From Symbiodinium sp. CCMP2592 (taxonomy: Eukaryota > Sar > Dinophyceae > Suessiales > Symbiodiniaceae), in NCBI GenBank assembly GCA_905221615.1, contig CAJNDT010000610.1, positions 1-64,000 on the forward strand: a stretch of DNA of 64,000 nucleotides. The letters are read 5' to 3'. Below are positions 2,036 to 61,115 of this stretch, one piece after another. Position 1 is the stretch's first letter. Every line of letters starts with the position of its first letter. Below the pieces are notes generated by a model. The model had not been told where the DNA came from and made no database searches. It saw only the letters and a list, made by a program, of their open reading frames with translations. The position numbers and the translations under genes were made by a program.

Positions 2036-2170
2036 CACTGATCTCCACTCTCAGCCCTCGAGACTCCCTAACAAAACATACAACTCTAATTTCAAGGGTA
2101 AGTGAATTGAAAACGATAGGGTTTAGGGTTGAATCCTTGTGTAAGGCAAGGACATACTGTAAGGACACCT

Positions 2171-2268
2171 GGTTCATGGTTGGGATAGGATTAAGAATTT
2201 TAGTTGTATATTCCTTATTGGGTTTAAGTACGCAGAAACATGTAAAATGTTACCCAACTATGACAAAG
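2171..2268. mobile_element. MITE family AA copy 1
   Basis: GGTTCATGGTTGGGATAGGA pairs with TGTTACCCAACTATGACA. This is the intergenic relative of ankyrin intron 4. Confidence 0.78.
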
Positions 2269-3724: not shown

Positions 3725-3916
3725 CTGTTGATGGACAAAATCCTGCATGACCCTTAAGGACTCTAAATTATGGGAATTATGGTATATTCCTAATAATGGG
3801 TAATGCAGGACTTATATCCCTAAACCCTAAAACCCTATAGATCCCTTAAAGGAGCCCCTTAAAGGTACCCTTATAGCTCCCCTTAAAGGAACCCTAGGAT
3901 TTTTGTCCATCAGCAG
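3725..3916. mobile_element. MITE family A copy 3, interrupted
   Basis: It has complete ends (CTGTTGATGG and CCATCAGCAG), but the right arm is split by about 85 bp of CCCTAAA and CCTTTAAAGGAACCC sequence. Confidence 0.8.
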
Positions 3917-9516: not shown

Positions 9517-10433
9517 TCACGCCTGCAGTGCTTCTCGCACCAGCGACGCGCACTCCTTGGCTGCTCCGACGTTGACGGTCCATCCGCTACCTCCATGGCC
9601 ATAGTTGTGGATGAGCTTGATAGGAGAATGAGTAAAGCTGGAGTCAATTTCGCACCTGACCGTTGGCCGGTATGGCCGAAAACCCACCCACTGGGAAGTA
9701 GGCGTGCTCTTGTCAATATCGATCCCAAGATTGAAAGAGTTCTGGAAGAGTCGCACTCTCTCCTCGTCTGAGATGGTCTCCCGTGCATCTTGCTCCAAGT
9801 AGCTGCCACCAACTAAGATAGTCGGACCACGAGGAACCAGATAGCATGGCAGCGTATCACTGCCCCAGGGAGCATGCTCAGCCATTATGGCAGCATCGTT
9901 AGTATTCGCTTGATCACTGTCGCGCCCTGTCACGAATGACTGCCGACGTTCTACTGTCTCTCTGTCGTAATGGAGCAGAATTCCTCGTGCCCCCAGCATT
10001 TGGTCGTCGTGACACAGCTTGCGAGAAGCCAAGCCAGTGCAATTGACAACAGCGTCGCAATTCTTTGTGGCGGCCATTTCAATCATCTCCTGCATCGACT
10101 CGAACATGCCGGTGGTTTCGTCTGTCGGAGCAGATGGCACATCGACCTCCTCGAGCATTTCTGATGCTCTTTCCAAGAGATGCTGCAGCATGAGCGTGGC
10201 GTTCACGATGGGCGTAAAGAACAAATGCGCATGCCGATAGCCAGCATTCAAAAGTTCGTGCTCTGATGGAATCCTTAAACGATTCACCGAGTTCTGCTGA
10301 GACAGCATCTCAACGGTGAGCTGCTGAAACTTCAGTCGCGGGTCGCTCGTCCACTCCCCCAAGGTCGTCGACTGAATCAGCTCCTCAGTCATTCCGCTTT
10401 GTGTAGTAAGCAACCCATCTCGTACTTCTGCGA
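9517..10433 (-). CDS. DAO: D-amino-acid oxidase family protein, terminal exon
   Basis: This exon of about 305 codons encodes most of an FAD-dependent D-amino-acid oxidase. That family deaminates D-amino acids to 2-oxo acids with hydrogen peroxide release, often in peroxisomes. It contains DAVVNCTG, then LVPRGPTILVGGSYLE, GFRPYRPTVRCE (the conserved substrate-binding arginine region) and the family signature HNYGHGGSGWTVNVGAA close to the C-terminus. It ends in EALQA followed by TGA, with no evident peroxisomal SKL-type tripeptide. The 5' boundary is approximate; the frame stays open to about 10467. Upstream exons are at 11225-11108, 12217-12141 and 14580-14505. Whether the substrate is neutral D-amino acids or D-aspartate cannot be decided here. 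A family E MITE lies just downstream of the stop. Confidence 0.88.
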
Positions 10434-10605
10434 CTGTAGGTATGCTATGCTGACTTCTACTTGACATATGAACACGTGCGCATGCGACTTTGTATTACTC
10501 TGTATCTGATATATGCACACATACATGCGTATGGGTCGGGCAAGATGAGCTAAGGCGGCAAAGTCAGAGATCAACCCAGAGAGTGACCGCCACACAGAGA
10601 GGGAC

Positions 10606-13878: not shown

Positions 13879-13909
<31 letters not shown>

Positions 13910-14016
13910 CACAACCACTACCACTACTACTGCTACTGCTACTTCTTCTATTACTACTACTACTACTACGACGACTACTACTGCTACTACTGCTACTACT
14001 ACTGCTACTACGACTA

Positions 14017-14055
<39 letters not shown>

Positions 14056-14056
14056 T

Positions 14057-14105
<49 letters not shown>

Positions 14106-14462
14106 GCTACTGCTACTGCTACTACTGCTACTACTGCTACTACTGCTACTACTGCTACTGCTGCTGCTGCTGCTGCTGCTACTGCTACTGCTACTGCTAC
14201 TGCTACTGCTACTACTGCTACTACTGCTACTACTGCTACTGTGCTACTGCTACTGCTACTGCTACTGCTACTGCTACTGTGCTACTGTGCTACTGTGCTA
14301 CTGTGCTACTGTGCTACTGCTACTGCTACTGCTACTGCTACTGCTACTGCTACTACTACTACTACTGCTGCTACTACTACTACTACTACTACTACTAGTC
14401 CTACCACGACGACTACTACTACTACTACTACTACTCCTCCTCCTCCTACTGCTACTGCTACT
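13872..14462. repeat. CTA/CTG trinucleotide microsatellite, about 590 bp
   Basis: Long runs of CTA are mixed with GCT-ACT and TGCTACTG units. All frames stay open only because of the triplet period. It lies inside the inferred first intron region of the D-amino-acid oxidase gene. Confidence 0.95.
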
Positions 14463-29553: not shown

Positions 29554-29707
29554 TCCAGACCCCTGGGAGGATGGTTTTGGGTTTAGGGGTTTAGGGTTTA
29601 GGATCTAGCAAGTAGATCCCCCAATTTGGGGCTGTATACTGCTAAGGGTACTTTATAGGAGCCTCCATCAAGGGATCTACTTTTTGGATCCTCCCGGGGG
29701 TCTGGGT
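29554..29707. mobile_element. MITE family F copy 1 with telomere-motif insertion
   Basis: CCAGACCCCTGGGAGGAT is split from GATCTAGCAAGTAGATCCC by about 30 bp of TTTAGGG motif with AGGAT on both sides. The right end is CCTCCCGGGGGTCTGGG. Confidence 0.8.
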
Positions 29708-42966: not shown

Positions 42967-44346
42967 TCAGATCTTCGCAGGTAAGCATGCAATCTTTACC
43001 TTGCCGCTCGTAGATGCCCACATCTTCGGTATCTTGCCCTGACTGTCCTGTGCGGTCTTAGCAGGTCCTGCTTCAAGAAGCCATCTTGCAATCTCAGCTT
43101 CGCCGCTGGCAGCCGCAAAGACCAGCGCTGTACTTCCCCACCGGTCCTTTAACTCCCTGTCAGCACCAAAGTCCAAAAGCAAACGCACCTAGTTCATGGT
43201 TGGGATAGGATTAAAAAAAACTTAAATTGTTATTCCTTTTTGGGTTTAAGTACCCCCTAAACCCTAAACCCTAAACCCTGAACCCTAAACCCTAGACCGA
43301 AATATACAATGTTACCAAACTATGAGAAAGCCACGATCTCCTTGTGACCGGCCATGCAAGCCTCCATTAGAGCCGTGGTACCGTCACGGCCTGTCCAATC
43401 CTGCTTGGCTCAGGGTTTAGGGTTTAAGGTTTAGGGGTTTAGGGTTTTGGGGTTTGGGGTTTAGGGTTTAGGGTTTAGGGAATCCTGCTTGGCTCCGGCA
43501 GACAGCAGAAGCCGGACAACTTCAGTGTGGCCCTTGATGGAAGCTTCCATAAGACTGGTTTTGCCGTAAGGATTGATCGCATCTTTGTCTGCGCCAGCCT
43601 GGGTTCTTTTTAAGGAGTTCGAGCCAAGTTACGACAAAAAGGATACCGCATCACCGGCGTACTAGACATCCATATTAGGGCAGCTTTAAAATGAAACTCC
43701 TTAATAAGAGCCCTGCAGCCTCCAATAGCACTTGTGCAACCTCCACGTGCCCCTCCATCGATGCCCGCATGAGGGCCGTCAGGCCCCCGCGATCAGTCAA
43801 GGAATGATCCTCGGTTCTTTTCGATTCAACGCAGCTCTACTGGGACTTGAAACGACATCTGAAAGCATGAACCCTAACATTGTTGAGCTGTTGATTAAAA
43901 AAGCAAAAGCTAAAGCTTTAAGCCGCCGTCTTAGAAAACATCCAGGTGTCATAACCGGCATCCAGCAGCAATCGAACAATGTGGGCATGGCCGGCGGCAG
44001 ATGCGCACATGAGAGCAGTTCTACCGAAGGCATCTATAGAGTCCTTGTCTGTGCTTGCCCGCAGCAGCCATCGCGCTGCCTCAACCTCACCACTCGTGGC
44101 TGTAGCTCGCAGTTCGTCTGCAACTTCTGACTGCAGAGTCATCGGCAGCAGAACCAGCTGCAAGTCCATGCATGAACCCAGCTTGAAAGTATCATCCATC
44201 CGGCATCCATGATGGAAAAGTTGCTGAAGTGAAACTGGAAAGCCATTCCTCCTTCGCAAACAATGCTTCAAGGCCTTCACGTCGCTCAGCTCCACGTCAG
44301 GTATGGCAGCCAACTCTTCCCCAGAGAGCCTCCAAATGCGGAGCAT
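42967..44346 (-). CDS. Ubiquitin-like plus ankyrin-repeat protein, five exons
   Basis: Exons read on the minus strand: 44346-43951, 43809-43720, 43598-43485, 43400-43335 and 43188-42967. All four introns are phase 0, and splicing gives about 295 residues. Residues 1-70 (MLRIW, SGEEL, DVKALK, MDLQLVLLP) resemble a ubiquitin-like domain. About five ankyrin repeats follow, each with the T/S-A-L-M and LLLxAG signatures. Donors are GA, GC, GA and GT; every acceptor is AG followed by G. Proteins with this layout are common in dinoflagellates and probably mediate protein-protein contacts; the partner cannot be read from the sequence. The last exon may stop at TGA or may splice at GTAAAG after the residues STSGK, so the true C-terminus is uncertain. 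A family D MITE lies about 20 bp upstream of the ATG. Confidence 0.82.
43189..43334 (-). mobile_element. MITE family AA copy forming ankyrin intron 4 (GT-AG, 146 bp)
   Basis: The terminal inverted repeats (plus strand GTTCATGGTTGGGATAGG and ATGTTACCAAACTATGAGA) lie within a few bases of the donor GAGATC|GTGGC and the acceptor CTAG|GTGCG. Splicing joins HKEI to VRLLLDFGAD. The middle holds a telomere-motif tract. Family AA also occurs at 2171 and 63969. Confidence 0.78.
43401..43484 (-). other. Ankyrin gene intron 3: telomere-repeat intron (GA-AG, 84 bp)
   Basis: The intron is a 69-bp degenerate TTTAGGG tract (plus strand 43412-43480) flanked by two copies of AATCCTGCTTGGCTC (43397-43411 and 43481-43495). 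Removal at CAG|GATT on both sides restores SAGAKQDWTGRDGTTALM in frame. See the findings. Confidence 0.8.
43599..43719 (-). other. Ankyrin gene intron 2 (GC-AG, 121 bp), hairpin-bearing
   Basis: The donor is GGAG|GCTGCAGG and the acceptor is CCCAG|GCTGGC. The join gives LLEAGADKD, the expected ankyrin sequence. AGGCTG is repeated at the two junctions. The ends of the intron are inverted repeats (CTTATTAAGGAGTT and AACTCCTTAAAAAG), so this intron looks like a MITE-derived introner. Confidence 0.75.
43810..43950 (-). other. Ankyrin gene intron 1 (GA-AG, 141 bp)
   Basis: The donor is TAT|GACACC and the acceptor is ACCGAG|GATCAT. Joining the exons gives LLLDAGYDHSLTDRGG, which fits the ankyrin spacing exactly. 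The dinucleotide GA is repeated at both junctions. No MITE terminal repeat is evident inside. Confidence 0.7.
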
Positions 44347-47494: not shown

Positions 47495-48007
47495 TCCCGT
47501 TGAGCTCGGTGGTGTCGGATGCTCGTCAGCGGCCCAGGGGACTCTCGGCCCACATCAACCCTCTTACAGTACCCCTATGGAAACCCTAAACCTCTAAACA
47601 CTAAACCCTAAACCCTAAAGATCCATTTAAGGAACCCTATTAGCTGCCTGTTTAGGGTCCCGTCTGAGATCCCCCCCCTAAGACGGCACCGAAAAAATGA
47701 CCCGCAAAGGGACCCTAATTTAGAATTACATACTTGTTGCGCTAGAAGGTAGGCCTTTAAGACTTTTTGGGGACTATAAAGGGGATCTACAAGGGTTCTA
47801 TACGGGCGTATACGGGTTCTCAGCAACAGCGTAGGTAACCTTTATAGGGTTTAATGTTTAGGGTACTATAGCAACTACATGTATACTGAACTTAGACCCC
47901 TAGCAAAAACACATAGTTTTAGCTGTTTCTTGGGGAGAACAGCATCCCAAGATTGAACAACATATTTCCAAGTACCACTAAGACAGCTTTTGAGAGAACT
48001 ACCCAAG

Positions 48008-48172
48008 TGTTCCTAAACCCTAAACCCTAAATAAATCCTAAACCCTAAACAAATCCTAAACCCCTATATAAATAAATCCTAAACCCTAAACCCTAAATAA
48101 ATCCTAAACCCTAAACCCTAAATAAATCCTAAACCCTAAACCCTAAATAAATCCTAAACCCTAAACCCCAAC
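48008..48172. repeat. Higher-order telomere-motif array
   Basis: A unit of about 25 bp (AAATAAATCC plus two CCTAAAC motifs) is repeated about five times. Confidence 0.9.
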
Positions 48173-48280
48173 TACCCAAGTTTTCGCCCCAAGCCGAGTC
48201 GCGCGAAGTAGGAGCCCTGGGATGACCAGAGGATTCCAGCACCGACCCCTGAAAACGCGGAGCGTTGCTTAGGGTTCCTT

Positions 48281-49682: not shown

Positions 49683-49909
49683 ACCCAGACCCCCGGAAGG
49701 ATCCAAAGAGTAGACCCCTTAATGGGGTTTAGGGTTGAGGGTCTAGGAGTTTAAGGGTTTAGGGTTTAAGGGTTTAGGGTTAGGGGTTTAGGGTTTAGGG
49801 GTTTAAGGTTTAGGGTAGATCCCTTGATGGGGGTTCCTATAAAGTACCCTTAGTCGTATAGTGCCCCAAATTAGCGGATCTACTTTCTAGATCCTCCCTG
49901 GGGTCTGGG
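49683..49909. mobile_element. MITE family F copy 6 split by telomere motif
   Basis: ACCCAGACCCCCGGAAGG to CTCCCTGGGGTCTGGGG, with an 87-bp TTTAGGG tract (49728-49814) inserted between 18-bp near-duplicates. Confidence 0.85.
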
Positions 49910-54184: not shown

Positions 54185-54351
54185 GACCCTAAACCCTAAA
54201 CCCTATAGATCCCTTTAAGGAACCCTATAGATCCCTATAATCCCGAAGTTGAACCCCTGAGGCGGAGACAGGAGGCAGTAGGCGCAGTAGGTGGCAAAGG
54301 AAACGATGAGACAATTTCGGCGGCCTGAGCGCTTTCGGGTTTAAGTTCGAG

Positions 54352-60847: not shown

Positions 60848-61115
60848 GAGGGGTTTGGGTTTAGGCTTTAGGGCTTCAGGTTTAGGGATAGTCAAAGGGG
60901 TTTAGGTTTAGGTTTTAGGGGTTTAGGGCTTTGGGGCCTCAGGTTTAGGAATAGTCAAAGGGTTTAGGTTTAGGTTTTAGGGTTTAGGGGTTTAGGGCTT
61001 AAGGTCTAGGGGAAGTCTAAGGGGTCAAAGTTTAGGGTTTAGGCTTTAGGGGTTTAGGGCTTTAGGTTAAGGGGAAGTCTCATCAGGGGTTTAGGTTTAG
61101 GGTTTAGGCTTAAGC
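60848..61115. repeat. Telomere-derived minisatellite
   Basis: Four units of about 60-70 bp, each ending GGATAGTCAAAGG or GGGGAAGTCT after TTTAGGG variants. Confidence 0.85.

Follow-up and report, generated by a model that had tools for sequence, protein, structure and literature searches.

How introns originate has long been debated, and the inserted material is seldom still legible together with the duplicated target. Introners of dinoflagellates were reportedly described by Roy et al. in 2023. According to the available portions of the respective accounts, new introns of Daphnia pulex carry terminal repeats of 4-12 bp, which were ascribed to staggered breaks (PMC4202315), and among the interstitial telomeres of the horse deletions prevail, with a few direct duplications that were ascribed to staggered breaks (PMC7215372). 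GC-AG and GA-AG introns in Symbiodiniaceae are given at 25-74% in the accessible part of a review (PMC11453091). Break-repair introns, interstitial telomere insertions, and relaxed dinoflagellate donors are each known. In the accessible portion of the open-access literature, we found no report of a telomere-derived intron, nor of a telomere insert combined with a break-repair duplication and a relaxed donor.

In the present study, we analyzed a 64-kb stretch of DNA (hereafter, the window), in which we modelled a minus-strand ankyrin-repeat gene of 295 residues in five exons; the model starts from MLRIWRLSGEEL, and its stop codon ends at 42967. All introns of the model were placed by restoring the ankyrin repeat, from sequence alone. 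The features are as follows, with a slash for the splice junction.

43951 to 44346, minus strand: exon 1 (model), from MLRIWRLSGEEL, matched to intronless paralogues
43810 to 43950, minus strand: intron I1, 141 bp, TAT/GACACC...CCGAG/GATCAT, modelled as GA-AG/G
43720 to 43809, minus strand: exon 2 (model)
43599 to 43719, minus strand: intron I2, 121 bp, GAG/GCTGCA...CCCAG/GCTGGC, modelled as GC-AG/G
43485 to 43598, minus strand: exon 3 (model), ankyrin repeat interrupted near its end
43481 to 43495, plus strand: direct repeat copy 2, identical at 15 of 15 bases, on the exon 3 side
43412 to 43480, plus strand: TTTAGGG-type tract, 69 bp (CCCTAAA on the strand of the gene)
43401 to 43484, minus strand: proposed intron I3, 84 bp, /GATTCCCT...AAGCAG/GATT, GA-AG/G
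43397 to 43411, plus strand: direct repeat copy 1, AATCCTGCTTGGCTC, on the exon 4 side
43335 to 43400, minus strand: exon 4 (model)
43189 to 43334, minus strand: intron I4, 146 bp, modelled as GT-AG/G, a copy of a dispersed element of about 99 bp
43255 to 43298, minus strand: a further telomere-type tract, lying within the I4 element
42967 to 43188, minus strand: exon 5 (model), to the first in-frame stop

Five Pfam ankyrin families scored above the cut-off in this model, which is open throughout outside I3; the last ankyrin repeat before the stop is degenerate in appearance, as judged by eye. As the first-pass annotation had described, an ankyrin exon contains a 69-bp TTTAGGG-type tract with an identical 15-bp copy on each side (43397-43495), and both copies directly abut the tract with no spare base between. 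AATCCTGCTTGGCTC occurs exactly twice in the window and not at all on the other strand. The tract consists of TTTAGGG units mixed with TTTAAGG, TTTAGGGG, TTTTGGGG, and TTTGGGG, and minus-strand readthrough meets stop codons within it in all three frames. The claim that an 84-bp minus-strand excision restores the coding phase was confirmed: removal of 43401-43484 (/GATT...GCAG/GATT) gives an in-frame ...LLLSAGAKQDWTGRDGTTALMEACMAGHKEI... and brings back the length of the ankyrin repeat too. Around this interval there are 13 stop-free in-phase joins of the form G[TCA]...AG/G, of which the 84-bp join alone keeps the full ankyrin repeat and the remaining 12 cost residues; in-frame GT or GC donors upstream could pair with the same I3 acceptor at a cost of 3-12 residues.

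I3 contains the tract and the rest of one duplicate, and nothing else. It has the donor (G[T/C/A]), the acceptor (AG/G), and the in-phase join of a dinoflagellate-type spliceosomal intron, and the direct repeat spans its exon-intron borders, as for a neointron of double-strand-break repair. Junction repeats are exact over at most 6 bp in the 14 other modelled introns, as at I2 (AGGCTG), whereas the repeat at I3 extends over 15 bp. The use of GA donors with AG/G, which the annotation had named for dinoflagellates, fits this material; I1, a second intron of this kind within the gene, and one of the dynein introns were modelled with it too. With duplicates identical at 15 of 15 positions, the event looks recent. 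The 15-bp repeat alone is notable, and not astronomically rare in a repeat-rich genome; that it coincides with an excision restoring both frame and repeat length exactly is a stronger point than the repeat itself.

The locus resembles the new introns of D. pulex in that an exon received an insertion with terminal direct repeats spanning the exon-intron border, and differs in the length of the repeat (15 bp vs 4-12 bp), in the GA-AG/G borders, and in that I3 is known from sequence alone; the string "telomer" is absent from the accessible text of the Daphnia account (PMC4202315). As with mammalian short interstitial telomeric sequences, for which a one-step insertion of telomere-type DNA into unrelated sequence is presented in the available part of the account (PMC7215372), the I3 tract lies in unrelated pre-existing sequence, the exon being continuous in paralogues. 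Unlike the mammalian cases, as far as they are covered there, the present tracts are of the TTTAGGG type in an alga and very dense, and this one lies inside a coding exon with an apparent intron function. Like the dinoflagellate introners described in the accessible text (PMC11453091), I3 would be a gained intron bounded by direct repeats; however, introners are repeated families, with inverted repeats in Amoebophrya in the part of the account available (PMC7789003), whereas the I3 tract is a simple telomere repeat without inverted ends. Terminal inverted repeats are a feature of some introner families, not of all, and in I3 with 20 bases of flank on each side we found no exact inverted repeat of 6-12 bp.

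The neighboring I4 fits the introner pattern better than I3. Its element of about 99 bp, TTTGTCATAGTTGGGTAAC...CCAACCATGAACYAG, has four other copies in the sequence that we compared, and besides its own copy at least 40 genome-wide matches, one of them a partial second piece, when 40 of 941 candidates were scored; the element is likely to represent an introner family. The tract at 43255-43298 inside I4 is missing from all four of the compared copies, one of which lies in the window.

2169 to 2267, minus strand: I4-element copy lacking a telomere tract

A single gene thus holds an introner-like I4 invaded by a telomere tract, beside a proposed intron, I3, that consists of a tract and its duplicated target only.

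The site of I3 was compared with its relatives. At least 223 genome matches to the ankyrin gene were found at E 1e-8 or better with 139 of 2557 candidates scored, and the paralogues listed from these, own locus aside, share 38-59% protein identity. Over 40 residues around the I3 site, 26 of 28 intronless paralogue loci, which are 41-50% identical and may be retrocopies, are gap-free; as for the two gapped ones, L010 is short of one residue and L037 has an extra 33-residue repeat. Among the best 120 of 2464 database relatives, 119 span the site and 96 are gap-free within six residues of it; the best-scoring named relatives among these 120 are Symbiodinium proteins. Together with the GA and GC donors and AG/G acceptors, this suggests that the DNA comes from a dinoflagellate. 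Because paralogues and database relatives are mostly gap-free there, the exon looks ancestrally continuous at the I3 site, and the tract appears to interrupt it. In a genome search with the joined exon flanks (one first-look candidate), no close paralogue or second allele without the tract was found, and the flanks matched this locus only, in two pieces. As a separate observation, this very large and largely intronless ankyrin family has a common N-terminus (at least 223 matches), as if it had been spread by retroposition.

The I3 tract is one of a very large class. In the 1.098-Gb assembly (5383 contigs), exact (TTTAGGG)3 matches on both strands number 148,652, with overlapping matches within a tract counted separately, vs 1 for the reversed control. 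The window itself has 61 telomere-type tracts covering 4527 bases (7%), a context absent from the first-pass annotation, as was the tract in the adjacent intron (43189-43334). For a comparison of tract flanks we used 322 kb of sequence, which was enriched for perfect TTTAGGG runs and is not a random sample, and omitted overlapping or duplicate loci (L002, L003, L004, L009, and L036) and tracts less than 45 bases from a locus end. Tract-free relatives were seen for 14 tracts at first, and for 10 of 283 tracts with usable flanks after more loci, a stricter E-value, and a limit of 14 gap letters were applied. The relatives of L048, of three tracts in L101, and of the tract at window position 54186 were dropped, as the alignments were gappy or the relatives had similar repeats; in L101, two of the tracts share the same flanking sequence. 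By our reading of the alignments, 8 of the 10 tracts (L018, L025, L029, L039 at 8290, L044, L114, L170, and the I4 tract) show an insertion or a small loss without duplication. One of the other two (window position 49725) shows a clear target duplication, and L119 is ambiguous. Because some sites have tract-free relatives, the view that telomere tracts are insertions into pre-existing sequence is well supported by these comparisons. The mix of mostly duplication-free tracts with a few duplicated ones resembles, by analogy, the interstitial telomeres of the horse as far as the available account describes them. At L029 (1451-1479, G000:C746), a 29-bp tract lies directly next to what looks like the start codon of an ankyrin paralogue that has no introns, and the relative at L021 is without the tract.

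Filtered flanking repeats with a score of at least 9 were found around 7 of 301 tracts, the I3 tract included, where a control of 12,040 random intervals predicts 0.72; the smaller sample gave 7 of 260 vs 0.63 under the same kind of control. Before tandem repeats were filtered out, the excess was weak (11 of 260 vs 6.7 in random intervals). A partner-shuffling control, which expected 0.53 for those 11 of 260 at the same score, was set aside; the gap between 0.53 and 6.7 reflects local repetition, and because this separates the two unfiltered controls we relied on the filtered random intervals. Chance was rejected as the sole explanation of the repeats by a modest margin (7 of 301 vs 0.72). One of the seven filtered cases is the I3 tract, and another (window position 60898) lies within a 62-bp tandem array. 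When 12,040 random intervals were drawn outside the tracts and matched to them in length, 16 had a filtered flanking repeat with a score of at least 14, or about 1 in 750 per interval.

The cleanest case after I3 is at L039, where 24 of 24 bases are identical around a tract (3777-3800 and 3849-3872) and absent elsewhere in the 10-kb locus. The duplicated sequence at L039 3777-3872 (G000:C1, about 203777-203872) is TAGGGGTCCTTACTAAGGGTCCCT; a tandem array was rejected here, as there are two clean copies only. Another case with a duplication is again in the window.

49725 to 49816, plus strand: telomere-type tract inside a repeat element, with 18-bp near-identical repeats at 49710-49727 and 49815-49832 (2 mismatches)

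It is enclosed by GTAGACCCCTTAATGGGG and GTAGATCCCTTGATGGGG, and its relative at 29600-29707 has one copy and no tract. The lengths of the flanking duplications thus vary (15 at I3, 24 at L039, and 18 with 2 mismatches at 49725), as would be expected of breaks. Two further arrangements were observed. A 157-bp telomere-type tract at 48012-48168 has 12-bp exact repeats, AACTACCCAAGT, at 47997-48008 and 48170-48181, in flanks that by eye are not obviously coding. At L001 (G000:C1), CTGCTCCGGCATCGCCAGGAG stands three times in a row (368-388, 477-497, and 655-675, the third copy with 2 mismatches) with telomere-type tracts between; could this be repeated insertion with duplication at one place?

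We attempted 12 junctions in genes for dynein heavy chains and resolved 11 of them. None of these 11 introns is a pure telomere tract, and one has an internal tract of 98 bp. The donors were GT in 6, GC in 4, and GA in 1, counts that depend on the forced G[TCA]...AG/G rule, with several second-best placements scoring close. A pure telomere tract is therefore seen in 1 of 15 modelled introns, namely I3, which in this small sample is a single case and does not constitute a family of the introner kind; no second pure tract in coding sequence was found among the dynein introns and compared loci. The expectation that telomere-motif introns would form a common class thus failed on the dynein genes. 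In the annotation the tract had been inserted and had thereby created an intron, with telomere repeats as an introner-like source. The insertion stands, with continuous paralogues here and tract-free relatives elsewhere; the introner-like source is not supported, given the 8 of 10 tracts without duplication and the dynein introns.

On balance, we consider it somewhat more likely than not that a staggered break was repaired with an insert of telomere-type DNA and that this insert could serve as an intron immediately. A staggered double-strand break would have occurred in an exon of the ankyrin-repeat gene, and telomere-type DNA, presumably from a telomere or from telomerase, would have been captured or synthesised at the break. 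Filling in of the 15-base overhangs would have duplicated the target, GAGCCAAGCAGGATT on the strand of the gene, which by chance contained AG/GA. Because dinoflagellates accept GA donors, the tract could have been usable as an intron at once: with GA, GT, or GC donors and an AG/G 3' end accepted, one copy would supply the 5' and the other the 3' splice site, and the insertion would have been removable from RNA from its birth. We predict that I3 is spliced, with a confidence slightly better than even. AG/G[ACT] in the duplicate is weak evidence for splicing, because in the coding sequence of the 28 paralogues 17.4% of 15-bp windows contain it (AG/GT, 6.6%).

That frequency also suits the main alternative, in our view rather unlikely, in which the insertion is real and broke the gene, the tract being retained in RNA or the gene silent, with the splice sites a by-product of the duplication. 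Because the duplicates are identical, the event must be recent and has left little time for decay, so that a gene broken not long ago would be hard to tell apart; the family is huge (at least 223 matches), so that loss of one copy may be tolerable, and the final ankyrin repeat has a degenerate appearance. However, the join is exact in both phase and repeat length, GA-AG/G fits I1 and the dynein intron, and the model is open everywhere else, although an open frame is compatible with a newly broken gene. A further account, in which a tract invaded an older intron and the 15-bp repeat goes back to an earlier duplication of splice sites or arose by chance, seems very improbable. The I4 tract does sit inside an older element, and one dynein intron has its internal 98-bp tract, but I3 has no sequence besides the tract and what is left of the duplicate, and the junction repeats of the 14 other introns stay within 6 bp.

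We see as little likelihood in the movement of the tract as an introner-like transposon, with a target duplication made by a transposase and not by filler DNA at a break, even though introners are documented in dinoflagellates in the accessible part of the literature (PMC11453091) and a family of dispersed elements includes I4. I3 with its 20-base flanks has no exact inverted repeat of 6-12 bp, the duplications around tracts are variable in length or missing, and pure tracts are found in 0 of 11 dynein introns; the varied lengths and the lack of inverted ends count against a transposase. An artefact of assembly or of local duplication is the least credible explanation and in our view extremely unlikely. 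Local duplications are abundant (48 of 12,040 random intervals have a filtered repeat with a score of at least 7), but the coding frame is restored exactly. The whole feature, at 99 bp, is short enough that single reads should contain it, which also counts against an artefact.

If the break-repair insertion at I3 is spliced, the insertion of telomere repeats into breaks and the gain of introns through break repair would be joined in one birth event. Under the relaxed donor rule (17.4% vs 6.6%), about 2.6 times more such insertions would survive, and a genome with 148,652 (TTTAGGG)3 matches is a natural experiment for this prediction. A speculative extension, which we regard as quite doubtful, is that the lineage repeatedly draws on telomere-type DNA as the material of new introns. 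In that case, break repair would scatter TTTAGGG tracts, the relaxed donor rule would let a sizeable share of the exon hits with a duplication splice, and telomere maintenance would feed intron gain. With no pure telomere tract among the 11 dynein introns, recurrence is unproven.

As for the rest of the window, Rfam and tRNA scans were empty. A 325-residue open frame on the minus strand (9520-10494) matches Pfam DAO, FAD-dependent oxidoreductase, and a 584-bp CTA-type array at 13879-14462 has several frames open as low-complexity protein.
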